Part shown: in pieces, positions 10,377-59,254 of the stretch | Position numbering within the stretch: the stretch's first letter is position 1 | How the letters are laid out: each line of letters starts with the position of its first letter | Source: Gammaproteobacteria bacterium | Lineage (GTDB): Bacteria > Pseudomonadota > Gammaproteobacteria > Enterobacterales > Psychrobiaceae | Reading direction: 5' to 3' | Length of the DNA: 64,000 nt | Assembly (NCBI GenBank): GCA_013214945.1 | Contig: JABSRT010000007.1 | Span: 62,001-126,000 of the forward strand | Position numbers and translations under genes: made by a program | The notes under the pieces: model-generated | Told to the model about the DNA's origin: nothing | Databases searched by the model: none | The model's input: the letters and a program-made list of their open reading frames with translations, nothing else

Positions 10377-11654
10377 ATGAGTTTGAAATTAACCGACAAG
10401 TCAGTTCTTTATATTGCGTACCACTATCCACCATTATTAGGTAGTAGTGGCGTGCATCGTAGTTTGGCCTTTAGTCGCTATTTAAGCGAGAACGGTTGGT
10501 CTACGCGTGTGCTGACAGCATCGTTAAAAGGTTACGAGCAATGGTCGCCTCAGCAATTAGATTTTATTCCACCTGAGGTTGAAGTCATACGCGCTTTTTG
10601 TCGTAATGCTGCAAAAGATTTTAGTATTAAAGGCAAATATTTTTCGTGGATGGCGATGCCTGATAATTGGCAAAGCTGGATCGTTGGCGGAGTAATTAGT
10701 GGTCTTCGTGCAATTAATAAGCAGCGACCGTCGGTGATTGTCTCAACTTACCCTATTGCATCCGCTCATTTTATTGCTTACTTTTTACATCGAATGACCG
10801 GGGTACCTTGGGTGGCGGACTTTCGTGATCCGATGGCGCAAGATGATTACCCGATAGATCCAGCAAAAAAGAAAGTTTTTCAATGGATCGAAAGCAAAGC
10901 GGTCGCTCATTGTTCACATATTATAGTAACGGCCCCAGGGGCATTAGCCTTATATCAAGAGCGCTACAGTTCAACCAATAAGGATTTTTGGCAACTAATC
11001 AATAATGGTTACGATAAGGTTATCCTCGATAAAATTGAGCAAGAAGTACAAGAAAAACCGCAACCTAAGAATCTTGGGTTGCCTTATGTATTGTTACATA
11101 GCGGGGTAATTTATCCGAGTGAACGAGATCCTAGCCAGCTATTTGCTGCGATAGCTCAGCTAAAAAAAGCGAAGCTGCTCGATGCCAATATGCTGATATT
11201 TCGTTTGCGAGCTACCGGTCACGACCATTTATATCAAACAATAATCGCAGATCTCGATATTGCAGATATGGTGTTTTTAGAACCCGCGATCCCTTATCAA
11301 GATGCGCTGCAAGAGATGTTCGCTGTTGATGGGCTGTTATTACTTCAGGCTGATAACTGTGACTTTCAAATACCTGCTAAAGCTTATGAGTATATTAAAG
11401 TGAATAAACCGATCTTGGGTTTAATGCCCCGAGATGGTGATACTGGTCTACTATTACAGCAGGTTGGTATTTCAAGTATTGCACCATTAAATAATCAAGA
11501 ACAAATTGAACAGGCATTGCTTAGCTTTGTTAGCCTGCTGTTCAATGGCGGTTTTGTTGGGTTGGCAGCAACGAAAATAGAACAATATTCTCGGCAAAGT
11601 CAGGCGGTACGATTCGAGCAGTTATTAAGTCGAGTAATTAGTAACAATCAATGA
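10377..11654 (+). CDS. Glycosyltransferase, GT4-like
   Basis: A 425-residue glycosyltransferase of the GT-B fold. The N-terminal domain opens with YIAYHYPPLLGSSGVHRSLA, the glycine-rich acceptor-side loop, and the C-terminal domain contains the nucleotide-sugar region ending in IPAKAYEYIKVNKPILGL. The sugar and acceptor cannot be read from sequence. AAGGGA directly precedes the ATG at 10377, so a TTG at 10383 with better spacing is an alternative start. It is the first gene of a four-gene plus-strand set with an ATP-dependent ligase, a deacetylase and a DUF2914 protein, which points to a cell-surface glycan. Confidence 0.82.
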   Translation: MSLKLTDKSVLYIAYHYPPLLGSSGVHRSLAFSRYLSENGWSTRVLTASLKGYEQWSPQQLDFIPPEVEVIRAFCRNAAKDFSIKGKYFSWMAMPDNWQSWIVGGVISGLRAINKQRPSVIVSTYPIASAHFIAYFLHRMTGVPWVADFRDPMAQDDYPIDPAKKKVFQWIESKAVAHCSHIIVTAPGALALYQERYSSTNKDFWQLINNGYDKVILDKIEQEVQEKPQPKNLGLPYVLLHSGVIYPSERDPSQLFAAIAQLKKAKLLDANMLIFRLRATGHDHLYQTIIADLDIADMVFLEPAIPYQDALQEMFAVDGLLLLQADNCDFQIPAKAYEYIKVNKPILGLMPRDGDTGLLLQQVGISSIAPLNNQEQIEQALLSFVSLLFNGGFVGLAATKIEQYSRQSQAVRFEQLLSRVISNNQ

Positions 11655-11693
11655 CCTTCCCATGGACTGGTGCCTTAAAATGACGGATAAAAG

Positions 11694-13454: not shown

Positions 13455-13475
13455 AATGGCTTGGAATGAGATGAA

Positions 13476-14468
13476 ATGACTCAAGACAGCATGAATAATA
13501 ATTATAAAATGCCTATTTCTCGGCGGCTGGCCCACCGGGCTCTTTCATTTGGCTCGAAGGTATTATCTAAAAATAAACTCAATATTTTAATTTACCATCA
13601 GGTGATGGAATCACTCGACCCAATGCGACCAACTGAGCCAACTCGAGATGATTTTTATCGTCAAATGTTATTGATCAAACAATATTACAACCCGATCCCC
13701 TTGAGTGATGCAGTAAAATTGCTGGCGCAGTCAAAGTTACCAGCCAACAGTATTTGCATTACCTTTGATGATGGCTACCTCAATAACTATTCTATTGCGG
13801 CGCCGATCTTAAAAGAATTAGCCTTGCCGGCCACTATTTTTATCGCGACTAAATTTAGCGAAGGCAGCAATATGTGGAATGATAACCTAATCGATTTAAT
13901 TTCAGATCCCGCTCGAATTAAATTCGATTTAAGCTTAATTGATTTAGGGATTTGCGAGGCTCACAGTTTAATACAGCGGCGCTTATTAGTAGAAAAAGTG
14001 ATCCAAAAGGTCAAATATACCCCTTATCAACAGCGTTTACAGCTAGCTAATCAAATTTTATTAGTTAACGGGAAATTGAATTCTAGCGCTAAAATGATGT
14101 CACCAATTCAGCTAAAAAAATTAGCCCAACAAGGAATAGAGATAGCAGCTCATACTCATGACCATCCGATATTGGCTGTATTAGAACCTGCGGAACAAAA
14201 AGCCCAAATAACTCAAAGCCAACAAAAACTAACTGAGTGGCTAGGGGTGCCTATTAAGGGCTTTGCTTACCCAAATGGCCGATGGTCAACCGATTATAAT
14301 TCGGAGACTATAGATGCGCTTAATCAGTGTGAATTTGATTATGCGGTGTCGACTGACAATGGGGTATCAACTCCAAGTACCAACCCGATGCAGTTAAATC
14401 GTTTTACGCCATGGAATAAAGATTTATTAAAATTCCACTTAAAACTGCTCATTAACACCGTACAATAG
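13476..14468 (+). CDS. Polysaccharide deacetylase (CE4/NodB family)
   Basis: A 330-residue protein with the NodB homology signature TFDDGY at 96-101, where the two Asp are catalytic base and metal ligand. The metal-binding histidine motif is EIAAHTHDHP near 222-230 and a later motif is FAYPNG. Family members remove N-acetyl groups from chitin-like or exopolysaccharide chains. The YHQVMESLDPMRPTEPT segment before the domain is typical of exopolysaccharide-associated deacetylases. No clear signal peptide is visible. It starts 21 bases after the synthetase-like gene. Confidence 0.85.
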   Translation: MTQDSMNNNYKMPISRRLAHRALSFGSKVLSKNKLNILIYHQVMESLDPMRPTEPTRDDFYRQMLLIKQYYNPIPLSDAVKLLAQSKLPANSICITFDDGYLNNYSIAAPILKELALPATIFIATKFSEGSNMWNDNLIDLISDPARIKFDLSLIDLGICEAHSLIQRRLLVEKVIQKVKYTPYQQRLQLANQILLVNGKLNSSAKMMSPIQLKKLAQQGIEIAAHTHDHPILAVLEPAEQKAQITQSQQKLTEWLGVPIKGFAYPNGRWSTDYNSETIDALNQCEFDYAVSTDNGVSTPSTNPMQLNRFTPWNKDLLKFHLKLLINTVQ

Positions 14469-22524: not shown

Positions 22525-23052
22525 TTAATGAATGAAATACTTAATCTTGTTTAAACTTAGTTGCTGACATGACTGGTCAGTTGTGTGGCAGCTAGCTTGT
22601 TTAAAAACGAACGCTAATGCTTGGGAACGTTTAGCCGCAATTTGTAACCGCCTAATATCTCGCTCATCGATAGCACCCGGCCAACCTAACACAGCACTGC
22701 TGGTTCCTGACATTAATGCTTGCTCCATGGCCCACAACGCATCAATTTGATCTTTTGGGTGAACGAGTAAAACCTTATTACTTGCAATGCCATACTCGGA
22801 TAGCAGTTGTTTTATCTCGTTTTTTTGCGCGCCAATTAATACAATCCAGCGCCCTTGTTGGCTCAATGTTGCTAACGTTGGCCCTAACACTTTTAATGGA
22901 TTAATTTGCTGCTCATTGCTGACAAGCTCATTAATGACTTGGGTTTTCCAACCCCCTAGCGGCAATGCTAAATCGATGGAGTTGTTGCCCGAGCTAATAG
23001 CTCGGGCCTGACTAGGACGCTGGATGTTGTTGTTTAAATACAGAGATTTCAT
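22525..23052 (-). CDS. sulA: SulA-type SOS cell-division inhibitor
   Basis: A 175-residue RecA-fold protein of the SulA/ImuA superfamily that blocks FtsZ polymerisation during SOS. The conserved start of the domain is [19 protein letters not shown], with [10 protein letters not shown] and [19 protein letters not shown] later. Its start overlaps the lexA stop by 4 bases, so it is co-translated with lexA and controlled by the LexA boxes upstream of that gene. The arrangement differs from E. coli, where sulA is separate. Confidence 0.85.
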
Positions 23053-23672
23053 TGCCAGTCTCCGTTTCGAATGATCCCTACAGCCAAGCCTTCTATTTCT
23101 AGTGATTGAAATTCTAAATCAACCTCAATAGGTTCAAACTCAGGATTTTCAGCGTGCAGAATAATTTTTTTACCTTGATGCTCAAAGCGCTTAACCGTTA
23201 CATCATCGTCAACCCGAGCTATTACAACTTGGCCGTCTCTGGCTTGTGTCGTTTTGTGTACTGCTAATAGGTCACCATCCATAATGCCAATGTCTTTCAT
23301 GCTCATGCCATTTACTCGTAACAAGTAATCTGCTTGAGGTTTAAACATGTTGGGGTCAATCTTATAATGGCATTCGATATGTTCCTGAGCCAAAATAGGT
23401 TCGCCGGCAGCGACACGACCAATCAGGGGTAAGCCAGTATCTTCAAGGTTTTCATCATTAGAGCTAATGACTCTAATGCCGCGCGAGGTTCCTGGGATTA
23501 TCTCGATCGCGCCCTTTTTTGCTAATGCTTTAAGATGCTCTTCGGCCGCGTTGGCTGATTTAAAGCCCAATTGCTTAGCTATTTCGGCGCGAGTTGGAGG
23601 CATGCCCGTTAATGAAATATTGTCTTTAACCAGTTGCAGTATTTCGGCCTGTCGGTTCGTTAGTTTTTTCAT
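23049..23672 (-). CDS. lexA: LexA repressor
   Basis: SOS repressor of 207 residues. The N-terminal winged helix (1-70) has [23 protein letters not shown]. The self-cleavage site is Ala89-Gly90 in RVAAGEPIL, with catalytic S124 (GMSMKD) and K161 (VTVKRF). Two consensus SOS boxes lie 85-120 bases upstream, giving autoregulation, and sulA follows in the same operon. Confidence 0.97.
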
Positions 23673-23756
23673 TATGTTACCCTTTAGTCAACATTAGCGC
23701 TTAACTTCACTTGCCTAGCTTTGTCACTTAGCTGTTATTTTTAAGCATTTTTGAGA

Positions 23757-23772
23757 CTGTTATTTCATACAG
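23757..23772. promoter_or_regulatory. lexA: LexA box 1
   Basis: CTGTTATTTCATACAG matches CTGT-N8-ACAG perfectly, 85 bases upstream of the lexA start. Confidence 0.9.
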
Positions 23773-23776
23773 TTGA

Positions 23777-23792
23777 CTGTCAGTATATACAG
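23777..23792. promoter_or_regulatory. lexA: LexA box 2
   Basis: CTGTCAGTATATACAG matches CTGT-N8-ACAG perfectly, 4 bases from box 1 (20-bp centre spacing, two helical turns). A further ACAG...ACTGT element follows in a TA-rich stretch. Confidence 0.9.
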
Positions 23793-24354
23793 TATTTTAT
23801 ACTGTGCAAGTAATAAACAGCTATTAACTGAATCTTGTGTGGGTTCCAGTTTAAAAATAAAAAAATCCAGCATGATTAAATTCTGTCTATGTTGTTTTTC
23901 AAGGCTAGGTATATTTATATATCCGATTTAGCCTTCAATAGCTTTAATTCATAGCGCCTGTATTAATATATTGTATATATGCATAATATTTAGCATTGAT
24001 GTTCGTTAAAAACCTTACTGTTAGGTAGAGCTATTGCGCGATAACTGTGGCACATAAACATAAAAAAAGGATTTTACTATCGCATTTTTGGTTGGCGTTA
24101 TACAACGATGAGGAGTTGAGTTTTCTTTTTGAAATTCTTAGTTTTTTCCGTTCTTCTTATGTAAAAACAGCGAGTACTTTACTGATACAAGGTAATTACT
24201 GAAAGAAGCAACCCAACACGAAAATAGCTTGATGATACATAGCAAGCTCAGGTCACCGCGTAATGAAAAATCAGTAATATTGCTCAATCATCAAAGTAAC
24301 TGCTTCTGCTTATATTCGTTTTAATAATGCTTATTTACTTGAGATACGATATTT
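23793..24354. other. Intergenic, AT-rich, no gene seen
   Basis: Upstream of the lexA operon. I see TA-rich DNA with scattered short ORFs without ribosome sites, and no tRNA-like or strong terminator structure. Confidence 0.5.
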
Positions 24355-24459
24355 TTACTTTTGCTCATAGCCGTGCTTGTGGCTTAGGTATAGCCCTGCA
24401 AGCATGATGATGACTGGTGTTGACCATAATAGGTATTCGATTACGTTGCTTTCTAGCAT
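24355..24459 (-). CDS. Possible 34-residue single-span membrane protein
   Basis: ATG 24459 is preceded by AAGGAGAG at good spacing. The 34-residue product starts MLESNVIEYLLWSTPVIIML and ends GLYLSHKHGYEQK; residues 8-26 form one hydrophobic helix followed by a basic/His tail, the layout of small membrane proteins such as accessory subunits or transport regulators. It stands alone in a 1.2-kb gap between lexA and a LysR gene. I recognise no family. Confidence 0.5.
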   Translation of the reverse strand: MLESNVIEYLLWSTPVIIMLAGLYLSHKHGYEQK

Positions 24460-24939
24460 TGTGCTCTCCTTGTCTGAAGCTTCAGTATACATGATGTTGT
24501 TGACAGTTACTGAATGACCGTTGAGCCGGCAACACCGGTAGTTGCGTTCAGTTGCCCTTGAGTCTTAGGCTATATAGGTATTATGTTAAACCGAACTCCA
24601 CAAACCTCCAGTTTTTCGGCACAGGATTAACATTTACTACCTATTCTGTGTGTGAGTTACTTGGTGCCTAGCTAGGACTAGTCGCGCCAATTTTTTCGCT
24701 CTTCCACAACAGAAAAATTTAGCGATAAATGGCGTGTAATATGCCTGTCATAAACTATGTTAAGCGAAATATAGATCACTAAACTCGGGACTATCCATGG
24801 CGTAAAACGTGAGTGCGTTATTTAAAGCGCTTAACTATTTAACGATATTGCAGCGCTAGTCTAATTGACGCGACTATTTTTATCGGGTAAAAGATAGGCA
24901 GTAATTTCCTATTCTGTCTATTAGGTTTTAAATATTAAG
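24460..24939. other. Intergenic upstream of LysR gene
   Basis: 480 bases without a convincing ORF. It contains TTGACA near 24502 as a possible -35 and a GC-rich GCCGGCAACACCGGT inverted repeat near 24525. Nothing else is clear. Confidence 0.4.
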
Positions 24940-25824
24940 ATGTCAAAATTTTTAGAATATCAAAACTATGTACATGTTTATGAACAAAAAAGCATTACCA
25001 AAGCAGCAAAGCAACTTAATATATCTACTTCATCGGTCAGTAAGCGCCTCGTTAAGTTAGAGTCGGCGATTCAAGTACAGTTGGTTGATCGAACAACCCA
25101 TAACTTATCAATTACGCCACTGGGCGAGAAATTTTACCGACGTTGTAAGGCTATTTTAGAACAAGTCAAAGACTCGGAATTATTAATCCAAGAAGAAAAC
25201 GAAAAGATCGATGGCAGGATTAGAATTTCAGTGCCAGAAATCTTAGCCAACAGAACATTTTTATTAGGGTTAAAAGGCTTCTTCTCCGACTTCCCTGAAG
25301 TGAACCTTGAAATCAATGTGACTAATGAAATCACCAATATGATCGATTCAGAAATAGACTTTTGTTTTAGAATCGGTTCGTTGGCCGATTCACAGCTCAT
25401 TGCTATCCCCGTTTTAACACTTGATTTTATTTTTTGTGCCAGCCCTAATTATTTAAAAAATAATGAGATCCCAGATAATTATCAAGATTTAATAAGAGAC
25501 AATAAGCTTATTTTACCCACTTATATTAATGTGGCTAAAGAATCAAAAGATTTTTTTCCTAACGATAATATCATCATTAAAAGTACTGAAAAATTTCACT
25601 GCTCAGATAATTTTAATACCATATTTAATCTGGCATTAAGCGAATTTGGGGTCACTCTTTTACCGAGAATGTATATTAAACAAGCACTGGTTAGTGGCCA
25701 ACTAGTTCAAATATATCCTAATTATCAATCACCAGAGTTTAATGTCAGCTTAGTGTATAACCGAAAATTGAGCATGACAAAACTAATGGCCGAGTTTAAG
25801 GATCATGTTAAAACCAACTATTGA
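24940..25824 (+). CDS. LysR-family regulator next to AfsA-like operon
   Basis: 294 residues. The N-terminal helix-turn-helix (about residues 17-38: SITKAAKQLNISTSSVSKRLVK) is followed by the linker helix and a periplasmic-binding-like effector domain. It is rich in Asn, Lys and Ile, matching the AT-rich neighbourhood rather than the housekeeping genes. It converges with the last gene of the AfsA-like operon (17-base gap) and is the only regulator nearby, so it is a candidate controller of that operon. Confidence 0.9.
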   Translation: MSKFLEYQNYVHVYEQKSITKAAKQLNISTSSVSKRLVKLESAIQVQLVDRTTHNLSITPLGEKFYRRCKAILEQVKDSELLIQEENEKIDGRIRISVPEILANRTFLLGLKGFFSDFPEVNLEINVTNEITNMIDSEIDFCFRIGSLADSQLIAIPVLTLDFIFCASPNYLKNNEIPDNYQDLIRDNKLILPTYINVAKESKDFFPNDNIIIKSTEKFHCSDNFNTIFNLALSEFGVTLLPRMYIKQALVSGQLVQIYPNYQSPEFNVSLVYNRKLSMTKLMAEFKDHVKTNY

Positions 25825-25841: not shown

Positions 25842-26513
25842 TCATAAGGTGATTACTGTCCACTTGTTTGCTTGTGAAATTGATAATAATTGTGGGCAGT
25901 GACCAACAGCGACAGGGTGACCAACGGACTCAAGCATTGATACATCACTAATATCATCGCCATAAGCGAAACTCTCAATTAGTGATATGTTGTTTCTCTG
26001 TGCATATTTATCAATAACTTGACGTTTTCCATGACCAATCACTTGCTGGTTTAAATCACCAGTGATGCGATTGTTTATTAACACTAAGTCGCTACATAAA
26101 ATATGTTTGACTCCTAGATCTTCTGCTATTGGCTTTAAACAAGGTAAAAATGAGCCAGACACGAATATAACAGCATCACCAACCGTTTGATGATGCCTTA
26201 AACGGTCGAGTATCGGTTGCTGATAAAATGTCGCACTTGGTTTACTTGCAAACCAAGTGCGACCCAAATCCATCAAATACGGCCAACTTACGCCGATAAA
26301 GACCTTATAATATTCTCTATTTAATTGTTCTCGGCTAACGCCTGCTTGTTGTAGCGCCATCAGCTTATCTTTAACACAGGTAAAATCAATAGAGGGCTCT
26401 TGGTATGGTGGTTGGTGACAATAGAACATTAAAAAGTCGAGCATGCTTTTGATATTTATTAAGGTATCATCGACATCAAAAAAAGCAGCAGTGTTGTGAT
26501 TATTGTTCATCAA
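25842..26513 (-). CDS. HAD-IB phosphatase, last gene of AfsA-like operon
   Basis: 223 residues. Motif I is FFDVDDTLI (D13, D15), motif II is VSGSF, motif III is the Lys in GHGKRQVI and motif IV is YGDDISDVSML, so it is a complete SerB-like HAD-IB phosphatase. Its start follows the outer-membrane protein gene by 7 bases. In Streptomyces A-factor synthesis a phosphatase removes the glycerol-derived phosphate after AfsA and a reductase; this gene may play that part. That is inference; the family also includes phosphoserine and lipid phosphatases. Confidence 0.85.
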   Translation of the reverse strand: MMNNNHNTAAFFDVDDTLINIKSMLDFLMFYCHQPPYQEPSIDFTCVKDKLMALQQAGVSREQLNREYYKVFIGVSWPYLMDLGRTWFASKPSATFYQQPILDRLRHHQTVGDAVIFVSGSFLPCLKPIAEDLGVKHILCSDLVLINNRITGDLNQQVIGHGKRQVIDKYAQRNNISLIESFAYGDDISDVSMLESVGHPVAVGHCPQLLSISQANKWTVITL

Positions 26514-26520
26514 ATTATTC

Positions 26521-27831
26521 CTAATAAGTATATTTAATTGATAGATTTATATGATCATTATTATCATATTGGCCAAAAATACCGTTTTTATTGCCAAAGA
26601 AGTAATTTGCACCTAGCGATACCACTAACTCATCATTGATGTTCCAGTCGGTTTTTATTCTGATTAAACCATCTTGATTATTAATGCTTTGTAAATATAT
26701 AAGGTTAAGATGATATATTTGGTTTTCAAAATACTTGTCAAACATCACGCTCCATGTTGAATCAACTTTATCCCGTTGCAGTTGGGTCGCGGAGCCCGAA
26801 ATAATATTTTGAAATAGCTGGCCGCTGATCATACCTTCATTTAATACTGACCAATCGAATGCTACTACATAATTGAATACGCTTCGTTTAGCGATACCCT
26901 CAGTGATCTGATTATTTAAAGTATGGAAATATTGTTGATCAACCAAACTGAGCTCTGAACGCAGCACAACATCGGCGAGTTCTTGTGAGTAAGATAAGCC
27001 AAATATATTAGCGCGGTAATATTTTGCTCGTAGTTGTAACGTATTGTCATCTTCTAATACTGACTGGTAAATATAGCTATCGTTATATTGGTTAATATAA
27101 ATCAAGCTAATGTCTTTACCGTCAATGCTAGTACCCAATCTCATCGCGTAGTCGGCATTTTTTAATCGATTTTTGACACCTGATGCTGGTTTAGTATCAA
27201 CTTGGTTATAATCACCAACAAGGGTTGGTGTTAGCTGAGGCGTGGTTGGTTGATAAAGACCATCTGGGATAAGAGAAGTCGTAGTGTCAGGGATATAAAG
27301 CAATTGCAGTGTCAAAGCGTCGAAGGACTTTGAATAATTAATCATCCAAATTGGGATTCTGGCATCATCGAAATCTTGTAGAATAAACTCGCTATAATCA
27401 AAAGGATTAATAATGTCTAACACACGTAGACCGTCACTTTCACCCCAAGCTACTTGCTGTTTTCCTATTTTAAAGTAATGTTGTTCGAGATAAAATTGCA
27501 AATAAAACTCCCTTAAATCTAAAGAAAGTTTGTCGTTAATATTATTGGTTTTACTCCAATCACTATAATTTTTCTGCAGATAATTAGTGCTGACTAATTG
27601 ATTATCAAAATCATAGTCAAGGCGTAATAATCCTGTAAAACTAAGATTAGAATTGAGATCTACAGTTAATTCATTATCGTATCTTAGTCGATTTTGTTTG
27701 CTGTGGTGATCGGCTATTGAATAAGATGAATTAAAGAGTAATTCACTGGTTAGATCGTAATCACTGCCGTAGCAATTTGTCGTACAAAGAAGTATCAGCG
27801 GGCTAATACAACGAAATATTGTTTTTTTCAT
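26521..27831 (-). CDS. DUF1302-type outer membrane protein
   Basis: 436 residues with a signal peptide (MKKTIFRCISPLILLCTTNCYG). The family motif LREFYLQFYLEQHYFKIGKQ is followed by QVAWGESDGLRVLDIINPFD and DARIPIWMINYSK. Alternating beta strands and a C-terminal INLSIKYTY, ending in an aromatic residue, fit an outer membrane barrel. DUF1302 proteins usually accompany MMPL exporters and LolA-like proteins, and are thought to carry hydrophobic molecules across the outer membrane. It lies 79 bases after the LolA-like gene. Confidence 0.82.
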   Translation of the reverse strand: MKKTIFRCISPLILLCTTNCYGSDYDLTSELLFNSSYSIADHHSKQNRLRYDNELTVDLNSNLSFTGLLRLDYDFDNQLVSTNYLQKNYSDWSKTNNINDKLSLDLREFYLQFYLEQHYFKIGKQQVAWGESDGLRVLDIINPFDYSEFILQDFDDARIPIWMINYSKSFDALTLQLLYIPDTTTSLIPDGLYQPTTPQLTPTLVGDYNQVDTKPASGVKNRLKNADYAMRLGTSIDGKDISLIYINQYNDSYIYQSVLEDDNTLQLRAKYYRANIFGLSYSQELADVVLRSELSLVDQQYFHTLNNQITEGIAKRSVFNYVVAFDWSVLNEGMISGQLFQNIISGSATQLQRDKVDSTWSVMFDKYFENQIYHLNLIYLQSINNQDGLIRIKTDWNINDELVVSLGANYFFGNKNGIFGQYDNNDHINLSIKYTY

Positions 27832-27910
27832 GGCAAGTATTTTTTATCATTTGTAAGGCTTGCTTTCACAAGCCTATGAATCGTTAACGCTAGAAACTAA
27901 ACAATTATTT

Positions 27911-28741
27911 CTAACCTCGAGATAGGTTTTCACGAGTAAATAGCTTAGGGTTAAGTGGTTTATTTAATACAAAGTCATAAAATTCAATAATAGTGGAATG
28001 ATTGGTTCTTAGGGTATTCATCGCTAATTTATGAGGACGTAGTTCATTGTTTCTACTGCCTTCAACAACCCGAAAATCTGAAGCATCCATTGTTTTAAAT
28101 AAAGTACCATCGCGGTCAAAAAACTCAGTGTGGACTGCTTGAAAGTGAGCTTTTGCTACCCATATCCATCGTTTGCTATAGCCACTATTGTGAGATTCTT
28201 GCTCGGTTGCAGGCAAAGCCTCAATTACCCAACATTCTTCACCATTGCGTTTTTCTTCGCGTAAAATGGTATAACTGCGTTTTTCTCCGGCGACTTCGCC
28301 ATCGAGAATTTCAAAATCCTCAAAACTAAAGTCAGTACCGACAAAACTATCGGTCTTTGAACTACCAGAAATACGGCGAGTTTTTCGCAGCGCCGGTAAA
28401 TATAACCACCGATCATTTTCTCTCGTTTGGTGTTCAAGCTGGACGAAGGAAGTACCTTTGATATTTTTTGGTGAACTAAACTTCATATACGATTTGCGTA
28501 AAACAGGGTTGGTATCATCTAAAATGAACGTTGCTTTACGGACCCGCTTATTGCCGTGGTCATTGATTAAGGTCATGGTTATTTGAGCCACTTCACTAAT
28601 TTCAGCTTTACGTGCCCGCTCATTTTTAACCATAATTTCTCGCGCCGATAATTGATTGTCTTGGGCAATTGCTGGACTACTTAGCATCGCCGCCAAGATC
28701 CCTTGGCTGAGGGTTAGCGCTAATAATTTGTTAAATTTCAT
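27911..28741 (-). CDS. LolA-like outer-membrane lipoprotein-sorting family protein
   Basis: 276 residues with a signal peptide cleaved after SPAIA (residue 26). The core matches the LolA-like family found beside MMPL transporters: NDRWLYLPALRKTRRISGSS and SFVGTDFSFEDFEI, then the strand motif YSKRWIWVAKAHFQAVHTEF. It probably carries a hydrophobic substrate in the periplasm between the inner-membrane exporter and the outer membrane. It starts 24 bases after the MMPL gene. Confidence 0.85.
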   Translation of the reverse strand: MKFNKLLALTLSQGILAAMLSSPAIAQDNQLSAREIMVKNERARKAEISEVAQITMTLINDHGNKRVRKATFILDDTNPVLRKSYMKFSSPKNIKGTSFVQLEHQTRENDRWLYLPALRKTRRISGSSKTDSFVGTDFSFEDFEILDGEVAGEKRSYTILREEKRNGEECWVIEALPATEQESHNSGYSKRWIWVAKAHFQAVHTEFFDRDGTLFKTMDASDFRVVEGSRNNELRPHKLAMNTLRTNHSTIIEFYDFVLNKPLNPKLFTRENLSRG

Positions 28742-28765
28742 GTCTATTCCTTAAATTAAGTAAAT

Positions 28766-31111
28766 TTAAATACGAGATATAGCCGATTCGTCAGCAATGC
28801 TTACGGATTGTTCAGGATCTTTAGCTGTTGCTTGGGCTGAAAAGATAAACTTAGGTTTGACGATCGCAATGAGTGCTGGATATAGGAAAATCACACTCAA
28901 CCCCATAATCAGCATAGTGAATGATACTAAGTAACCAAAAACTTGGACCGGTTTAAAGGCCGAAAATATCAGCATTGAAAAACCTAGCATATTGGTAAAG
29001 GTATCAAAAAACACGGCTTTAGCCGACGTGACTGCCGTTAGCGATAAGGCCTCTGAATAATTACCTACACTGATCATGTTTGTTCGTAATTTGCTCAAGT
29101 AGTGAATTGAAAAATCAATTCCGATCCCTATGGCTATCCCGGTAATAATCGAGGTTGGCATATCTAAACGAAGACCATAAAATCCCATGTAGGCGAACGT
29201 AAGAATGACCCCAAATGCAATAGGTAATACCCCAAGTAGGCCAGCAGAAAAAGAGCGATAAGCGAGGGAACATAGAACGATTATTAATAAGAGTGCCACA
29301 ACAATGTTTTCAATTTTACCTTTAATGATGTAATCGACTTTGGCTAGCCATAAGATGATGTCACCACCAAAATCAGCGGTTGCTCCTTGCGGAAAATGTT
29401 GGTCTAAATAGTGCTTTGCGGTCAAATAGAGCGCTCGGTGTTCATCAGGATCAGAAGTCTTTAACATCACCTGAATTTTAGCTCGTTGATACTGATAATC
29501 GACCAGATTTGAGAAGTCACCAGGATCGCCGGACATATCATATAGCAGCATATATTGGGCAAGCTGTTCGTCAGATGTTAATGGTGTTTTTTGCTCACTA
29601 TCGACATTGATGGCATCGGATATTTGATTAATGATGTCGCTAATCGAATGGGTATAACCAACACCAGGTTGTTGATCCATGTAGGTTTGAAAATCTTTAA
29701 TAAATTCAATATATTTAACAGTTTGAATATCTCCACTGCTTTTCGCGGTGATCATAATGTTAAAATAGCGAGCGCCGGCTAGTGAGTCATTAAATACGTT
29801 AAATGCAACTCTCGCTTGATTGTCTTGCTTAAATAAATCTAAAAAATCTAAGCCAGTCTTGATTTGACTAATGCCAAAAACACCGATTAAGGTTAAACAC
29901 AGATAGCTAAAAACTACCTTAAATTTATGTCGTAGTGAAAAAGCGGTGACCGTGATTAACAGCCGATCTAACCTTGAAGTACCGATAAGTTTCTGCTGAT
30001 CTTTGCGATCTTTAATGTTTATGCATAACTGTAAGATAGCCGGTAAGACAGTGATATTTATTAACCAGGCACCAAGAATGCCGACCATCGAAGCAATGGC
30101 GAACTCTTTGATCATTAATATTTCGAAAACCGCTAATGATGCAGCCCCAAGCGCCGAAGTGACGCCGACGAGTATCAGAGAGGGCAATACTTTGGCTAAT
30201 GCCTGCTGTACTCGTGTTTTACTCGATACTGGTTCATTATAATAATAAATTAGAATGTGAATCGCATAAGAGCTAGCAATAGTGACCAATAGTAATGGTA
30301 GAGCTGTCGATACTGCCGTTTGAGGTAACCCCAAATGCCCCATCATTCCCATTGCCCATATGATGCTTAAGATGACGCAAACCATCGGTAATATCACACC
30401 GCGCACATTTCTAAAGCAGACAAATAAACCAATCATAATCAGCAATAATGCTAATGGGATTAGGGTTGCAGTGTCTTTTTGAATACCACCATCAATCTCT
30501 TGAGTAAAGATTGGCTCGCCGGTGACATAAATTTGTTCGGGGCCTTGGTATTTATCAACAATGGCATAAACTTGGTTATATAAAGTTGCTTGATCGTATC
30601 CAGGATCCACTTGTGCCGTAATCACGGTAAACTGGTTATCTTTAGATACGAGTCGGTTATTGACTAAAATATTACGTTTAACCTCCTGTTCAAGTGTTTT
30701 TAGTCCAGCGTTATCAGTTGGCACTGTTTTCATGAAAACACCAACATCGAGCCCCCACTCCTTACCAACAACATTATTAACGGTAGCTAAACTGTTGATT
30801 TGATCTGGTACTACAAAGTCGACCCGTTTGAGTTCATTTGAAATTTTTGCCACCTTAGTTAAGGTGCTACTTTGAAATATATTGCTATGGTGGATCCCGA
30901 TCATTATTTCGGTTTTATCGCCAAAAATATTATCAATACGTTTTTTAGTCGCGACAATAGGATCGATTTCAGGTAAATCGGCATCTTGATTGGTTCGAAT
31001 TGTCATTTTAGATAAACCACTGCCAATCATGACGGTTATCAGTAGCATTAATAATAAAACTTTTATCGGATGCTTTGTGACGAGCTCTGCATACTTGTTG
31101 GTTAAATTCAT
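28766..31111 (-). CDS. MMPL/RND-family exporter
   Basis: 781 residues with 12 predicted membrane helices in two halves, each with a large periplasmic loop after helix 1 (residues about 38-215 and 420-600). The sterol-sensing/RND core is visible in helices 4 (FAIASMVGILGAW region) and 10 (ITGIAIGIGIDFSIHYLSKL). The family moves lipids and hydrophobic metabolites, such as mycobacterial lipids or hopanoids. AAGGGA lies before the ATG. Its start overlaps the monooxygenase stop by 4 bases, so export is coupled to synthesis. Confidence 0.92.
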   Translation of the reverse strand: MNLTNKYAELVTKHPIKVLLLMLLITVMIGSGLSKMTIRTNQDADLPEIDPIVATKKRIDNIFGDKTEIMIGIHHSNIFQSSTLTKVAKISNELKRVDFVVPDQINSLATVNNVVGKEWGLDVGVFMKTVPTDNAGLKTLEQEVKRNILVNNRLVSKDNQFTVITAQVDPGYDQATLYNQVYAIVDKYQGPEQIYVTGEPIFTQEIDGGIQKDTATLIPLALLLIMIGLFVCFRNVRGVILPMVCVILSIIWAMGMMGHLGLPQTAVSTALPLLLVTIASSYAIHILIYYYNEPVSSKTRVQQALAKVLPSLILVGVTSALGAASLAVFEILMIKEFAIASMVGILGAWLINITVLPAILQLCINIKDRKDQQKLIGTSRLDRLLITVTAFSLRHKFKVVFSYLCLTLIGVFGISQIKTGLDFLDLFKQDNQARVAFNVFNDSLAGARYFNIMITAKSSGDIQTVKYIEFIKDFQTYMDQQPGVGYTHSISDIINQISDAINVDSEQKTPLTSDEQLAQYMLLYDMSGDPGDFSNLVDYQYQRAKIQVMLKTSDPDEHRALYLTAKHYLDQHFPQGATADFGGDIILWLAKVDYIIKGKIENIVVALLLIIVLCSLAYRSFSAGLLGVLPIAFGVILTFAYMGFYGLRLDMPTSIITGIAIGIGIDFSIHYLSKLRTNMISVGNYSEALSLTAVTSAKAVFFDTFTNMLGFSMLIFSAFKPVQVFGYLVSFTMLIMGLSVIFLYPALIAIVKPKFIFSAQATAKDPEQSVSIADESAISRI

Positions 31112-32724
31112 GAGGATCCCTTAATGCTTATATCTGTTAGGTTATTAGCGATGAATTGGGAAATTAGATCTGGTATTTCCGTGGCGTTTTTTATGTGACC
31201 AGCCTGTTGGATATGGCAATCTGGTCTAACAAATATAAATATATTTGATGATAAATTCTTATTTTGTAATGGACTCAGCGACTCTCTGATTAAGCTGTAA
31301 TGAAAAGATACACCTTGTATCACGCTTTGATTTGAGAGCTGGATAACTTGTAATGAGGGGTGTTGAAAAGAAATCAATTGGTGTTTTATTTCATGCTGTT
31401 CTGCGAGTAGCAATAACGTATATTTATCGAGATTTAATAAAGGATAAAGCTGGCTAATCACCAGACCATTATTGAGCGATAAATTAGCCATACGGTCACC
31501 AGCTCTAAACTGAGTTTGGTTCATTTGGTTCGAAATAAGCTTCTGATAACTATGGCTCATACCAGAGGCTTCCATCACCATTTTCTTTTTCACTCGGGGA
31601 GATTTACTCAGTAGTGGTAGGGTATCATCTTGCAACATAACGGAAAAAAAGTTACTGATGGAGAATAATCTATATAACTTACCGGTGGAGCCTAAGGCTT
31701 GTTCGGCAATGAATCGACGTTCATTATTGTAACTTTGCAATAATTTAATATTGGATTGTTTTTTGATAATCAAAGATAACTTCCACGCTAAATTAAAACT
31801 ATCTTGGACGCCTAAATTGATCCCTTGTCCTCCGACAGGGCTATGAATGTGACACGCATCACCGACTAAAATAACCCGATGATGGACATACTGTTCAACA
31901 AGCTTGTTGTTTAGCTTAGCCTTAGATAACCAATCAATATACTCAAAACGTAAATCAGAAAAACCTCGTTCATCAAGTAATTTGTTGAACTGTTTTTCAT
32001 CGAAGGCAATGTTATTTAGCCGACTCTGTGGAATATCAACAACAATGCGGTGCTTGCCATTCGGGAGCGGAAATAACATGGTGTAGCCCTTAGGCGAAAG
32101 GAAGGTATGCCCTTGGCTAAGGTTAATATTGGAACGTTTAAATTGAGTTGTTATCTGCCCGTCAGCGACAATATAGCTTTCGTCATAATGTCGGCCGGGA
32201 AAGTCTATTGCTAAGTTCTTTCTGACAGCACTTTGCGATCCGTCGCAACCTATCACAAAGTCATGATTTTGAGAGTAGCACTTACCATCACTGCGTAAAG
32301 AAGCGATAACATTAGTGTCCGTTTGATTCAGGCTTGTTAGCTCTACGCCATACTCAATGGTGCCACCTAATGCTTCATACTGCTCAGCGAGTAACTCTTC
32401 AAGTCGATATTGTTCCAAGCTAAATACGCTATCAAAATTAGGATTCTCTAATAATGGAAAGTCGAAGTTGAATACATGGCTGCGTTCTGAGTGAATATTC
32501 ATGTTCTTAACAGCTAACGCATGTTGTTTTATTTTCTGACCTACACCAATTAATTCAAGTAATTCAACTGTGCGAGCATGGAGGCTAAATGCCTTTGAGG
32601 AAGGGAGTCGTACCATACGTTTTTCAATGACAATACAAGGTATACCATAGGTTAATAATAAGCATCCTAGAGTTAATCCAGCTGGACCGCCACCAACAAT
32701 GAGTACACTTTTATCGATGCTCAT
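31108..32724 (-). CDS. Class A FAD-dependent monooxygenase
   Basis: 538 residues. The Rossmann GGGPAG is at 11-16, the DG motif is in FVIGCDGSQSAVRK and the GD motif is VGDACHIHSPVGGQGINLG, so it is a PHBH/MhpA-type hydroxylase with the C-terminal thioredoxin-like domain. Such enzymes hydroxylate aromatic rings or polyketide-like intermediates with NAD(P)H and O2. It is the second gene of the operon; its start overlaps the AfsA-like stop by 4 bases. The substrate may be the AfsA-like enzyme's product, but this is not shown by the sequence. Confidence 0.9.
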   Translation of the reverse strand: MSIDKSVLIVGGGPAGLTLGCLLLTYGIPCIVIEKRMVRLPSSKAFSLHARTVELLELIGVGQKIKQHALAVKNMNIHSERSHVFNFDFPLLENPNFDSVFSLEQYRLEELLAEQYEALGGTIEYGVELTSLNQTDTNVIASLRSDGKCYSQNHDFVIGCDGSQSAVRKNLAIDFPGRHYDESYIVADGQITTQFKRSNINLSQGHTFLSPKGYTMLFPLPNGKHRIVVDIPQSRLNNIAFDEKQFNKLLDERGFSDLRFEYIDWLSKAKLNNKLVEQYVHHRVILVGDACHIHSPVGGQGINLGVQDSFNLAWKLSLIIKKQSNIKLLQSYNNERRFIAEQALGSTGKLYRLFSISNFFSVMLQDDTLPLLSKSPRVKKKMVMEASGMSHSYQKLISNQMNQTQFRAGDRMANLSLNNGLVISQLYPLLNLDKYTLLLLAEQHEIKHQLISFQHPSLQVIQLSNQSVIQGVSFHYSLIRESLSPLQNKNLSSNIFIFVRPDCHIQQAGHIKNATEIPDLISQFIANNLTDISIKGSS

Positions 32725-33461
32725 TGAGATACTCTTTGTGGTGAATCACCCTTAGTCATTAAATTGAGTAATTGCTTGCTCCGTTGACCACTTTTCTTTT
32801 TCATGAGTAGATTATCCATTTTGGATAATCTTTGACTTGGGACAACTTTGAATGTGGCAAAGGTTCGAACGATAAGTTCATTGTTCTGGTTAAAGTTAAT
32901 ATCGACGTGATAGTTTTCACCATCACGCTCAATACTGACTGTGATATGAGTACAAAAAGGAAAGGTGAATTTTATATATTCACAATGAACATCATTAATA
33001 ATCATTGATACGTTAACTGGGTCATCTCCAACAAAAGAGGCCCATGATGCAATTGATATTTGTCTTGTTGCTTCTAGAAAAATCATGCCGGGGTTAAGCT
33101 GACCGCTAAAATGATCGAGTAGAAATTCGTTGTCATTATCAATAATTAATTCAGCTAGGTATTGGCCTGGTGCAATGGTTTGTAATTGTGTGATTAATAC
33201 ATCTTTTTGATTTGACTTACGCATAGCTTCTTTACTTTGCATAATAATTTCGTCGGAATTATTGTTGTTATTTAATCGTGCATTCACATCAATAATTTTT
33301 TGTCGACAGCCTTTATTTAAGCCTTGAGCGGGAACGTAATACGGATGCTTAATTTCTGATATCGTTTGACTTGCAGTTTTTTTTATAAAATCGCTGTAGG
33401 TAATATATAACTTGTCCTGCGATAAATTAGAAAATCTGTCGTCGACCACAAATTGTAACAT
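32721..33461 (-). CDS. AfsA-type A-factor biosynthesis hotdog protein
   Basis: 246 residues. The core at 88-207 fits the AfsA hotdog repeat: DNEFLLDHFSGQLNPGMIFL with D116, H117, G125, M126, then E130 and R133-Q134 in EATRQ, and a closing FATFKVV strand. In Streptomyces AfsA joins a beta-ketoacyl-ACP with dihydroxyacetone phosphate to start gamma-butyrolactone synthesis. Typical AfsA has two such repeats in about 300 residues; only one is clear here, and the first 85 residues with an Asn stretch at 64-68 are unusual. It is the promoter-proximal gene of the operon. Sequence supports the fold; chemistry is inferred. Confidence 0.78.
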   Translation of the reverse strand: MLQFVVDDRFSNLSQDKLYITYSDFIKKTASQTISEIKHPYYVPAQGLNKGCRQKIIDVNARLNNNNNSDEIIMQSKEAMRKSNQKDVLITQLQTIAPGQYLAELIIDNDNEFLLDHFSGQLNPGMIFLEATRQISIASWASFVGDDPVNVSMIINDVHCEYIKFTFPFCTHITVSIERDGENYHVDINFNQNNELIVRTFATFKVVPSQRLSKMDNLLMKKKSGQRSKQLLNLMTKGDSPQRVSQ

Positions 33462-34024
33462 GGTAATTCCTTCACTTTTTGTTGAATCAATACGTGCCTG
33501 TATTGACTTTTAGTCCGATAAGATTAGTTTTAAATGCTAACTGTTCATATTTCCAATTTAGAAAAACCATTTTTTATCGTAGAGAAAAGAGAAGGTTTCT
33601 CTTTAATTTTGTGATTAACGGGAATCTATTAAACGAGAGTAACAAGTTGACTGGTAAAACTTGATGGATCTAGTTTCGCTGTTAAAGGACGGGGCAATAT
33701 CATGATATTTCTCTGATGAGAAAAGTGCTCACAAATAGTAGCAACACAACATTTGTGAGCTTACGGCTGATAGTTCAATTAAACTGATTTTGTCATATTA
33801 ACTTCAATTACAAGGGGCAAACCCTTTGTTGAAGTGTCCAGCAGATTCAATCACAACATATTTAACCGACGGGGTTGTCAGGGCCGCGCAAAGACGCAAT
33901 TAACACGCAGCAGAAATTGTCATTATCTAGTACTTCGCGACGAATAACGTCTGACAAAGCTATAGAACACGGGGCTTTTTTGCTATATTAAGGCGTTTTT
34001 CTCGCAACGGTTCCCTTTTATATT
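33462..34024. other. Divergent promoter region, AfsA-like operon and plsB
   Basis: 563 bases between oppositely directed genes. It holds the 10-bp inverted repeat described separately, an AT-rich segment beside the AfsA-like start, and a TATATT -10-like element near 33983 for plsB. No convincing gene. Confidence 0.6.
33727..33760. promoter_or_regulatory. Inverted repeat upstream of plsB / AfsA-like operon
   Basis: Perfect 10-bp arms GCTCACAAAT / ATTTGTGAGC with a 14-base spacer. No T-run follows, so an operator or half-site pair is as likely as a terminator. Confidence 0.4.
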
Positions 34025-36442
34025 ATGACAAGCCCTCTTTTTCGTTGGATCCAAGTATTACGCTGGCCTCTAAAGCTCTTTGTAAAGAGCAAGTTAGTGC
34101 CTAAGGATCCGTGTTCTGAACTCGGTATCGATCGCACCAAGCCGATTGTCTATGTGCTTAAAAATGAGTCTGCGTCTGACTTGTTAGCCTTAGAGCGGGT
34201 TTGTCAGCAATTAGCAATTCCAGCGCCAACAGAAAAAATCACCATTAACGGTAATACCATTCCGCGTTATTTTTGTATTCAAGGCCGCAAGCCGCTGTAT
34301 GTGAAGCAAGACGATTCTGAAAAATTCATTACTCGTTTTAGCGAATTTATTGGGTTAATCCGTGCCGATACTGAACAAGATGTGCAAGTGGTGCCAGTGT
34401 CGTTATTTTGGGGTCGCAAACCCGGCCGTACCGATGATTCAGTAACCTCGGCAGTATTGCAGCGTGAAAACGCCAGCTGGTTACGTAAAATGATGATGAT
34501 CATTTTTCTGGGGCGTGACAACTTCGTTCGTTTTAGCCGACCTATTTCAATGCAAACGTTGCTTGAGAAACGTGGCAGCGATGAGCAAGTAGCACATAAA
34601 TTATCTCGATTAGCGCGTTTTCATTTTCATCGTCAAGCTCAAACTATGCTTGGGCCTAAGTTGTTATACCGCGCTTCGCTAGAGCGTAACTTGTTGCAAT
34701 CGGCGGCGTTGCAAAGCGTGATGAAAGACTATGGCGAACAAAAGAATAAAACCAAGGAAGAAGTCGAACAAGAAGTACGTGATTTTATCGATGAAATTGC
34801 GGCAGATTATTCAGAACGCGTACTGCGGATTTGTGACCGTGTATTAACTTGGTTGTGGAATAAGTTATACAAGGGCGTCAACATCACCAATGCTGAGCGG
34901 GTTCGTCAGCTTGCACAAAATGGCGATGAAATTGTGTTTGTGCCATGTCACCGCAGCCACATGGATTACTTGTTATTAAGCTATGTTATTTATCGTCAAG
35001 GCATGGTGCCACCGCATATTGCAGCCGGCATTAATTTAAGCTTTTGGCCTGCCGGTCCTATTTTACGTCGTGGCGGTGCATTCTTTATGCGTCGTAGTTT
35101 CCGCGGTAATAAACTTTATGCCGCGGTATTTAGAGAATACCTGCATCAGTTATTTAGCAATGGCCATTCTGTTAAATATTTCACCGAGGGCGGGCGCTCG
35201 CGTACGGGGCGTTTATTAGCGCCTAAAACGGGCATGATCGCGATGACAGTTCAGGGCTTGTTGCGCGGTATTGACCGTCCTATTACCTTGGTGCCTGTGT
35301 ATCTTGGTTATGACCACGTGATGGAAGTGAGTACTTATCATAGTGAGTTAAAAGGCAAGTCGAAAGAGAAAGAGTCGATGGGGCAGGTGGTTAAAACCTT
35401 GCGCAAGCTGAAAAACTTTGGTCAAGCCTATGTTAACTTTGGCGAGCCAATTCAGTTAAATAAGCTGCTTGATGACAAGGTTGAGAATTGGCGCGACGAC
35501 ATTGATACGTTAGCGGTGCAAAAACCTAGCTGGCTAACCCCAGTGGTGAACGACATTGCTAATAATGTGATGGTTAATATCAATAACAGTGCGGCGGTGA
35601 CCTCGATTACTTTATCTGCGCTAGTTTTGTTGGGCGTTGAGCGACGCATAACCTCTAAAGATGCGCTAGAAAAGCAGCTTGAACTGTATTTGCAATTGTT
35701 ACGCAAAGCACCCTTTATGCCTGATGTAACGATACCCGACGTTAACGGTCAGCAGTTGTTGTCGCAAGCGATTGGCTTAGAGAAATTTACCCTAAGCTCA
35801 GATCAGCTTGGTGAGATGGTTAGTCTCGATGTTTCAGGTGCGGTAACCATGACCTATTACCGTAATAACATTTTGCACTTGTTTGCGCTACCGTCATTAA
35901 TTGCGGCTATCTTTATTTATAAAGGCAGTAAAACTCGCGCCCAGTTAGCTGAGATTATTGAGCCACTTTATCCGCTGTTTCAGGCCGAGTTTTTCCTTGG
36001 TTTTGAGCATGACGCTCGTGAAAGTTATATCAACTCGGTCTTAGCAGCCTTAATTGATTTGGGCTTAATTGAGTTGGTTGATCAGCAATATCGCTTAATT
36101 AGCGAAACGCGCAGTCAGCTATTTATCATGGCGCAGCACATTCAAGAAACGTTAGAGCGTTATGCGATTGTACTTAAAATATTGGAACGTAAACCTAAAA
36201 TTGAGCGAGCGGCGTTAAGTCAAGAAAGTCACGCCTTGGCCCAACGTTTATCGAAAATTCATGGCATTAATGCCGCCGAATTTTTTGATAAGCAGGTGTT
36301 AACAACCTTTATTTCGGGGCTTAAAGAGCAAGATTACTTAAATGATCAAGTGCCAGCTAAGTCATTAGAAGAGCTAGCGACTTTAGTGAGTTCGTTAATG
36401 CGACCTACGGTATTGGCGACCATTCGCGCAAGTTTAAATTAA
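34025..36442 (+). CDS. plsB: Glycerol-3-phosphate 1-O-acyltransferase
   Basis: Inner-membrane-associated enzyme that puts the first acyl chain on glycerol 3-phosphate. 805 residues, matching E. coli (807). The catalytic block is HRSHMD (H309, D314), followed by the glycerol-phosphate binding block GGAFFMRRSFRG and block III FTEGGRSRTGRLLAPKTG. It is a housekeeping gene. In Vibrio and Shewanella it is divergent from and adjacent to lexA, whereas here about 10 kb intervene. Confidence 0.96.
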   Translation: MTSPLFRWIQVLRWPLKLFVKSKLVPKDPCSELGIDRTKPIVYVLKNESASDLLALERVCQQLAIPAPTEKITINGNTIPRYFCIQGRKPLYVKQDDSEKFITRFSEFIGLIRADTEQDVQVVPVSLFWGRKPGRTDDSVTSAVLQRENASWLRKMMMIIFLGRDNFVRFSRPISMQTLLEKRGSDEQVAHKLSRLARFHFHRQAQTMLGPKLLYRASLERNLLQSAALQSVMKDYGEQKNKTKEEVEQEVRDFIDEIAADYSERVLRICDRVLTWLWNKLYKGVNITNAERVRQLAQNGDEIVFVPCHRSHMDYLLLSYVIYRQGMVPPHIAAGINLSFWPAGPILRRGGAFFMRRSFRGNKLYAAVFREYLHQLFSNGHSVKYFTEGGRSRTGRLLAPKTGMIAMTVQGLLRGIDRPITLVPVYLGYDHVMEVSTYHSELKGKSKEKESMGQVVKTLRKLKNFGQAYVNFGEPIQLNKLLDDKVENWRDDIDTLAVQKPSWLTPVVNDIANNVMVNINNSAAVTSITLSALVLLGVERRITSKDALEKQLELYLQLLRKAPFMPDVTIPDVNGQQLLSQAIGLEKFTLSSDQLGEMVSLDVSGAVTMTYYRNNILHLFALPSLIAAIFIYKGSKTRAQLAEIIEPLYPLFQAEFFLGFEHDARESYINSVLAALIDLGLIELVDQQYRLISETRSQLFIMAQHIQETLERYAIVLKILERKPKIERAALSQESHALAQRLSKIHGINAAEFFDKQVLTTFISGLKEQDYLNDQVPAKSLEELATLVSSLMRPTVLATIRASLN

Positions 36443-59128: not shown

Positions 59129-59213
59129 GCCGGTATGGTGAAATTGGTATACACGACGGATTCAAAATCCGTTGCCTTCGGGCGTGGCGGTTCAAGTCCG
59201 CCTACCGGTACCA
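59129..59213 (+). tRNA. tRNA-Leu(CAA)
   Basis: 85 bases with encoded CCA. Acceptor GCCGGTA pairs with TACCGGT (one G·U), discriminator A, anticodon loop TTCAAAA with anticodon CAA on stem ACGGA/TCCGT, a class II variable arm (TGCCTTCGGGCGT) and T-arm GGCGG-TTCAAGT-CCGCC. It decodes UUG. The 3' half is duplicated imperfectly at 63930. Confidence 0.97.
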
Positions 59214-59231
59214 TTTTATGTTCTAAATTAG

Positions 59232-59254
59232 CCTCACATTGTTGAGGTTTTTTT
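59232..59254 (+). terminator. tRNA-Leu terminator
   Basis: Stem CCTCA / TGAGG with loop CATTGT followed by seven T, 19 bases after the tRNA end. Confidence 0.85.

Follow-up and report, generated by a model that had tools for sequence, protein, structure and literature searches.

The 64,000-nucleotide stretch analysed here (the window; positions 62,001 to 126,000 of contig JABSRT010000007.1, assembly GCA_013214945.1, from a gammaproteobacterium of the family Psychrobiaceae) contains, between lexA and plsB, a minus-strand operon of six genes in which an AfsA-related gene and the genes of two other enzymes adjoin those of a predicted three-part transport system. The operon is a conserved unit that is also rare and A+T-rich, and it is apparently a mobile cassette that moves horizontally. 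We put at about even the chances that this compact, horizontally moving operon serves biosynthesis and export, its product being an amphiphile, an oxidised acyl-butenolide or furan, which would be exported and would not diffuse freely. The six genes, a neighbouring regulator gene and an upstream repeat are as follows (aa, amino acids; FAD, flavin adenine dinucleotide; RND, resistance-nodulation-division).

32721..33461, minus strand: AfsA-related hotdog protein, 246 aa (PF03756, E 2.1e-12)
31108..32724, minus strand: class A FAD monooxygenase (FMO), 538 aa (FAD_binding_3, PF01494, E 6.6e-68)
28766..31111, minus strand: MMPL/RND (HAE3-like) inner-membrane transporter, 781 aa (PF03176, E 4.3e-35)
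27911..28741, minus strand: periplasmic LolA-like protein, 276 aa (LolA_like, PF17131, E 3.8e-53; DUF1329, E 1.2e-12)
26521..27831, minus strand: DUF1302 protein, probable outer-membrane barrel, 436 aa (PF06980, E 2.5e-13)
25842..26513, minus strand: HAD-IB phosphatase, 223 aa (HAD, PF12710, E 4.5e-27)
24940..25824, plus strand: LysR-family regulator, convergent with the operon (PF03466 and PF00126)
33487..33506, no strand: inverted repeat with perfect 7-base arms directly upstream of the AfsA-related gene, a possible operator

An earlier note, made from the letters of this DNA alone, had described a six-gene minus-strand operon with 4-base overlaps and short gaps. We verified all six open reading frames (ORFs) at their coordinates, running from 33461 to 25842 in the order AfsA-related, FMO, MMPL, LolA-like, DUF1302 and HAD-IB phosphatase, and confirmed their Pfam families and the gaps between them, which are −4, −4, +24, +79 and +7 bases from the AfsA-related gene to the HAD gene. 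The operon is flanked by lexA (23049-23672) and plsB (34025-36442), with 10.35 kb between the two; this interval has seven genes and no further ORF of at least 90 aa, and no integrase was found among its ORFs of that size. About 1.27 kb between lexA and the LysR gene (23673-24939) is free of such ORFs and has no Rfam match; the sole match of the Rfam scan was a tRNA, far from the operon.

Evidence that these genes belong together comes from Vreelandella nigrificans, a member of the family Halomonadaceae (locus L046), which has all seven genes in the same order, the LysR gene included, and in which the 4-base overlaps AfsA/FMO and FMO/MMPL are preserved. Amino acid sequence identity between the two is 37% for AfsA, 38% for FMO, 60% for MMPL, 61% for LolA, 36% for DUF1302, 39% for HAD and 40% for LysR; the Vreelandella DUF1302 homologue has no Pfam match at E 0.01. 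A metagenome-assembled genome (MAG) labelled Psychrobiaceae and of the window's own genus, G003, has AfsA-FMO-MMPL-LolA in order, at 81, 87, 94 and 91% identity respectively, on a contig that then ends (5,585 bp; L045, identical to L018). The expectation in the earlier note that the six families would co-occur in other genomes is thus borne out completely by one genome and in part by a second. That the genes could be unrelated same-strand neighbours without a joint function, for which the rarity of the operon speaks and nothing else, is scarcely conceivable: it is contradicted by seven genes kept in the same order in another family, at 36-61% identity and with their 4-base overlaps, and this synteny rules out chance neighbours.

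The operon is rare. Matches to a close AfsA profile were present in 5 of 369 genomes of the window's class, 4 of 201 genomes of Vreelandella's family and 9 of 264 genomes of its order; distant AfsA proteins are included in these counts, the class count also takes in the window's genome, and the family and order counts take in Vreelandella. Of 394 genomes from the order to which the window belongs, 13 had a PF03756 match, the window and G003 being two of them. Most matches of the class, family and order surveys were viewed with about 1.5 kb per side; one locus (L169), read over 19.5 kb, has AfsA and HAD, and no FMO, MMPL, LolA or DUF1302 match. Among the other genomes of the window's genus (n = 8, several of them incomplete) only G003 has an AfsA-like gene. 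MMPL relatives occur in all nine genomes of the genus, but the operon's own MMPL gene only in the window and G003, the others having identities from the 20s to 30%.

We also examined stretches upstream of plsB from eight genomes of the genus. In two of them, G002 and G008, lexA directly adjoins plsB, with 277 and 376 bp between the genes. The distance in G003 is about 1.4 kb; it holds a 286-aa ORF and no match to the operon genes, the operon being on another contig. In the remaining five, lexA does not lie within the roughly 6-7 kb examined, so that an empty site is not seen in these. Over the 160 bp preceding the AfsA-related gene the window and G003 are 80% identical, after which similarity ends. 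The G+C content of the operon is 37.7%, compared with 42.6% and 44.1% in the flanking 10 kb or so on each side. A search for repeats joining the edges of the island gave only short pairs, with no perfect direct pair and none connecting both edges. A neighbourhood that varies within the genus, the end of similarity and a skewed composition together fit a mobile cassette.

The first protein scores 47.6 bits against PF03756, whose gathering score is 24, and this family is its sole Pfam match up to E 1. A profile-profile comparison with five ScbA/BarX proteins gave 98.2% (E 4.9e-14), covering the second repeat only. The placement of the gene in the AfsA family by the earlier note therefore holds, and a FabZ-like dehydratase is ruled out. 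The window protein has a single Pfam AfsA match, at residues 82-204, whereas two other proteins (L081 and L085) have two. Similarly, both E..RQ motifs are invariant in the five ScbA/BarX proteins and the window protein has one. The conserved DH..G and E..RQ residues of AfsA proteins have a presumed catalytic role, and in an alignment of the window protein with 29 relatives the invariant residues include D116, H117, G120, G125, E130, R133 and Q134. The relatives are from 29 of 35 listed AfsA loci (described below), six longer or two-repeat proteins having been excluded beforehand. A search by sequence for a solved AfsA relative gave none, only two chance-level ClpS matches. Judging from these comparisons, the protein is best named AfsA-related, not a canonical gamma-butyrolactone synthase.

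The two other enzymes have the motifs expected of their classes. The FMO has, in its PF01494 domain, the class A motifs GGGPAG (GxGxxG), DGSQS (DG) and GDACH (GD); among solved proteins it best matches polyketide hydroxylases and rifampin monooxygenase. A tree of 27 FMOs groups those of the window, L045 and L046 in a clade with support of 100/99. Linkage to AfsA, treated as a label on the tree, requires 2 changes compared with a mean of 9.4 after shuffling (0 of 500 shuffles as low). AfsA-linked FMOs thus appear clustered beyond the shuffles, a single exclusive clade being unsupported by the tree. The HAD-IB phosphatase has DVDDT (the DxDxT nucleophile motif), SGS and GDDISD (acidic motif IV), and matches NCBIfam HAD-IB-hyp1 above its cut-off. 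Its gene starts with TTG, with an in-frame ATG adjoining, and contains a perfect 14-base inverted repeat with a 6-base loop (26230-26263).

To see how AfsA genes are accompanied elsewhere we used a profile scan of genome contigs, made with one peptide pattern, which gave at least 35 loci, near-duplicates among them (L050/L051 and the Nocardia loci). Counting only neighbours on the same strand, within 8 kb and at E 1e-10, a HAD-IB homologue accompanies AfsA at 23 of the 35 listed loci and an FMO homologue at 11; nine have both. By this count AfsA plus HAD-IB is a recurrent, not a universal, pair. Same-strand clusters of AfsA, HAD-IB and class A FMO occur in Pseudomonas, Moritella and Thalassomonas (L050, L051, L052, L063 and L075). 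An account of Chromobacterium subtsugae describes AfsA with HAD-IB under quorum control (PMC12114271), and an AfsA cluster in Pseudomonas has been published (PMC8719888). The earlier note knew of no described system like this operon. For the gene set our searches are consistent with this, as we found in the open-licence literature no description of AfsA joined to this transporter set, but clusters with AfsA in Gram-negative bacteria are in print (PMC7426152, PMC12114271, PMC10574677 and PMC8719888).

The third, fourth and fifth genes encode a transport trio that also recurs. MMPL, LolA-like and DUF1302 genes are adjacent in that order in the window, in Vreelandella and in 9 of the 24 loci with related MMPL genes that we compared in other genomes (neighbours judged within about 1.5 kb), one of these nine (L127) having a weak DUF1302 match (E 0.001); three further loci have LolA only, five DUF1302 only and seven neither. 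These comparisons agree with the earlier note, which had called the trio a known co-occurring set, and by them it is a recurrent module. The order can differ: DUF1302 comes first in a trio of Haliovirga (L083). That trio, on a plasmid of Haliovirga abyssi (Fusobacteriota; about 4100-11400 of L083), runs DUF1302-MMPL-LolA and adjoins a protein like ketoacyl synthase III (KAS III), with a radical SAM protein slightly upstream. In a survey of 350 sampled Gammaproteobacteria genomes, in which two candidates were scored per genome and the window's own match was left out, those other MMPL matches that reached E 1e-60 were 23-30% identical to the operon's protein, compared with 60% in Vreelandella. 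The pump therefore seems to have travelled and evolved together with this biosynthetic set.

Against TIGR00921 the MMPL protein scores 234.5 bits, under the cut-off of 351.9, and its solved relatives, all weak (E 2e-6 to 9e-4), are HpnN, MmpL4, NPC1-type, MmpL3 and Patched. The LolA-like protein has a signal-like N-terminal stretch (by eye) and the solved relatives 3bk5 and 9tp6; LolA-like proteins are lipid carriers. The DUF1302 protein has, by eye, a signal-like N-terminal stretch and a C-terminal tyrosine. By analogy with related modules, the trio would carry a hydrophobic product to the outside. Such relatives lie within nonribosomal peptide synthetase (NRPS) clusters in two genomes (L084 and L152) and beside a polyketide synthase (PKS) in a third (L155). 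The L084 locus, of Acinetobacter baumannii, encodes three consecutive proteins with lengths of 424, 621 and 255 aa, where A1S_0117-0119 of the acinetin 505 operon have 424, 621 and 254 aa (PMC5376624). L152, one of the 24 loci and from another gammaproteobacterium (G729), has an NRPS cluster like that of acinetin 505, with an AMP-ligase, a fused MMPL-LolA and DUF1302, and in L155 (G586), also one of the 24, MMPL-LolA-DUF1302 is close to a PKS with sulfotransferase and thioesterase domains.

Two other roles of the trio have to be weighed against export. One is that the enzymes make an acyl lipid or pigment for the cell envelope, placed in the outer membrane by the MMPL and LolA-like proteins as HpnN does with hopanoids; the solved relatives found for the MMPL protein, weak as they all are, are mostly lipid transporters, and lipid carrying is what LolA-like proteins are known for. 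We consider this unlikely, since the DUF1302 protein suggests an extra step across the outer membrane and the related acinetin-type module goes with a compound recovered, by its authors' account, from spent medium (PMC5376624). The other role is catabolic, the trio importing a hydrophobic substrate that FMO and HAD then degrade. In Pseudomonas putida, DUF1302 and DUF1329 have been proposed to form a transport system with an RND transporter, and their genes are described as required for Tween 20 metabolism (PMC10866462). We think this role very unlikely for the operon, because it leaves AfsA as first gene and the AfsA-HAD pairing (23 of the 35 listed loci) unexplained, and because relatives of the trio are found in NRPS and PKS clusters.

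Regulation of the operon may involve the LysR protein, which the earlier note had put forward as a candidate regulator at its end. The gene is present, and a 40% identical homologue is kept at the same position in Vreelandella, but it is transcribed toward the operon and lies outside it. With up to 2 mismatches allowed, the inverted repeat at 33487-33506 is matched nowhere else in the window, where 0.32 are expected; at least one such repeat occurred in 25 of 100 shuffles, so that it is weak on numbers alone. It falls in a block that is identical in the same-genus MAG, and it was not found in Vreelandella. A scan for sigma-70 promoters upstream of the AfsA-related gene found none, and nothing convincing came from a comparison of the window and Vreelandella upstream regions for LysR boxes and shared words. 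The seven genes of the interval from lexA to plsB, to which this search was confined, belong to other families than the ArpA/ScbR-type receptors and BprA-type reductases.

These observations bear on whether the operon makes a gamma-butyrolactone quorum signal like those of Streptomyces, for which the LysR protein would be the receptor. AfsA family membership, the LysR gene kept beside the operon in two lineages and the upstream repeat conserved in the same-genus MAG all favour such a signal, as does an afsA mutant of Ruegeria, described as losing transcription of most of its cluster's genes (PMC7426152). Against it are the lack of an ArpA/ScbR-type receptor and a reductase between lexA and plsB and the absence of the inverted repeat from Vreelandella; moreover, a small polar signal would not require a three-part lipid-type exporter. 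We judge a quorum signal unlikely, and since neither receptor nor reductase lies in that interval, a saturated signalling butyrolactone is not our best guess.

Our preferred reading, synthesis and export of an acyl-butenolide or furan, is a proposal about substrates, step order, transport direction, product class and regulation that starts from the A-factor pathway, in which AfsA joins a beta-ketoacyl thioester to dihydroxyacetone phosphate (DHAP) and a phosphatase acts next. Papers on methylenomycin furan (MMF) and gladiofungin agree with condensation by AfsA followed by a phosphatase (PMC7037778, PMC6604932 and PMC10574677). We propose that the AfsA-related protein condenses a beta-ketoacyl thioester from fatty-acid synthesis with DHAP, as an ester. 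Going by the precedents of AfsA, MmfL and gladiofungin, the adduct would close to a phosphorylated acyl-butenolide, from which the HAD-IB enzyme would remove the phosphate. The class A FMO would oxidise the electron-rich enolic or furan ring, a step for which A-factor synthesis has a BprA-type reductase instead and the methylenomycin-furan pathway an acyl-CoA-dehydrogenase-like flavoenzyme. The amphiphilic product would then be taken up by the MMPL pump, passed to the LolA-like protein and released via the DUF1302 protein, with the LysR protein regulating the operon. With an FMO present and no reductase, the most likely product, by analogy, is an oxidised, unsaturated acyl-butenolide or furan, and the lipid-type transporter alongside suggests that it has a long acyl chain.

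Several observations weigh against this reading. The window protein scores 19.1 bits against the ScbA/BarX NCBIfam equivalog, whose cut-off is 200 (its relatives score 31.8 bits in Vreelandella and 23.9 bits in Ruegeria), and it is missing the first E..RQ repeat; because of both, DHAP as acceptor is an extrapolation. The butyrolactone-like or other acyl metabolite suggested in the earlier note is partly supported, having the AfsA family and the pairing with HAD-IB in its favour. A single origin of AfsA-linked FMOs was recovered in 0% of 200 bootstrap trees, in which the backbone was unresolved, and similarity between the window FMO and the MmfH-type enzyme is undetectable. Among the matches listed there is just one complete second copy of the operon; 10 of the 35 listed AfsA loci have neither HAD nor FMO; and in ten stretches around AfsA matches from other genera of the order (L019-L028), HAD is present five times, once together with FMO, and the MMPL set never. 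Transport could run in either sense, since in P. putida DUF1302/DUF1329 proteins are tied to growth on Tween 20 (PMC10866462). Lastly, as the earlier note had pointed out, neither a ketoacyl synthase nor an acyl carrier protein is among the genes of the operon, nor is a BprA-like reductase. The missing ketoacyl synthase is no objection, because the acyl chain in such pathways comes from fatty-acid synthesis and the window's genome has two KAS III family matches, one strong and one near the cut-off.

The boldest form of the proposal is that AfsA-derived butenolide or furan lipids, oxidised by the FMO and exported through both membranes of a Gram-negative cell by an MMPL-LolA-DUF1302 conduit, are a new class of secreted amphiphile, made by one cassette that moves between marine and halophilic bacteria; this we offer tentatively, at somewhat less than even chances. 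To our knowledge, it would be the first case of an AfsA pathway that has a trans-envelope lipid exporter of its own. AfsA-type clusters recur outside Actinobacteria, and for most of those seen there we know of no product; little is understood of the DUF1302 and LolA-like proteins that accompany MMPL pumps; and the seven-gene operon ties both themes into a small test system.

Elsewhere in the window, 59129-63831 is a low-G+C, island-like segment adjoining a tRNA-Leu, with genes for a DUF2971 protein and a Fic-family protein and a 396-aa ORF without a Pfam match. At 10377-14468, consecutive glycosyltransferase, asparagine-synthase-like and polysaccharide-deacetylase genes resemble exopolysaccharide clusters.

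Among known systems, mmfL-mmfH-mmfP, which makes the methylenomycin furans (2-alkyl-4-hydroxymethylfuran-3-carboxylic acids, AHFCA) in Streptomyces, is like the operon in having AfsA, a flavoenzyme and a HAD phosphatase as its biosynthetic genes. We examined an AfsA - acyl-CoA-dehydrogenase-family - HAD cluster on a plasmid of Streptomyces anthocyanicus, which its neighbourhood and the published accounts of MmfL, MmfH and MmfP (PMC7037778 and PMC6604932) lead us to regard as mmfLHP. Its first two genes overlap by 4 bases, as in the operon, and the two HAD phosphatases are homologous (36% identity, E 1e-44). Unlike the operon, it has a flavoenzyme of the acyl-CoA dehydrogenase family, a two-repeat AfsA protein and an adjoining ScbR-family regulator, with no MMPL, LolA or DUF1302 gene annotated around it. 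Identity with the mmfLHP pathway is ruled out, the window FMO being unrelated to the MmfH-type enzyme.

The SPOA0342 cluster of Ruegeria pomeroyi DSS-3 (L044, an AfsA-like match in 1 of 72,556 plasmid records and outside the 35 loci) has an AfsA-related protein (27% identity) and a HAD-IB hydrolase (38%) in a marine Gram-negative host, where it is also apparently acquired, but a tautomerase, an aldo/keto reductase, hypothetical proteins and a major facilitator superfamily transporter replace the FMO and MMPL set. Diffusible killing is attributed to this cluster in the account of its mutants, six transposon mutants having lost it (PMC7426152). Gladiofungin/gladiostatin of Burkholderia gladioli shares with our proposal a DHAP-using AfsA-like domain, described as joining it to a beta-keto thioester, a HAD phosphatase gene in the cluster and a butenolide end group, according to the pathway description (PMC10574677). 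There, however, AfsA is an offloading domain of a trans-acyltransferase PKS and is not fed by ordinary fatty-acid synthesis. The Pseudomonas, Moritella and Thalassomonas clusters are like the operon in having AfsA, HAD-IB and class A FMO on one strand, and differ in having (by eye, L051 excluded) an apparent aldo/keto reductase between HAD and FMO, an apparent condensation-type enzyme and alpha/beta hydrolase after the FMO, and no MMPL set. On the transport side, the acinetin 505 operon of A. baumannii (A1S_0112-0119) has MMPL, LolA-like and DUF1302-like genes in a secondary-metabolite operon. The acinetin-type cluster examined (L084) differs in its fused MMPL-LolA protein (1216 aa), its lipopeptide NRPS and the lack of any AfsA match along the stretch. 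The 424-aa protein of this cluster is not matched by Pfam DUF1302 and is only 21% identical to the window's DUF1302 protein. Both modules are thus known singly, and what is new is that they are combined in a single operon, which is conserved and apparently mobile.

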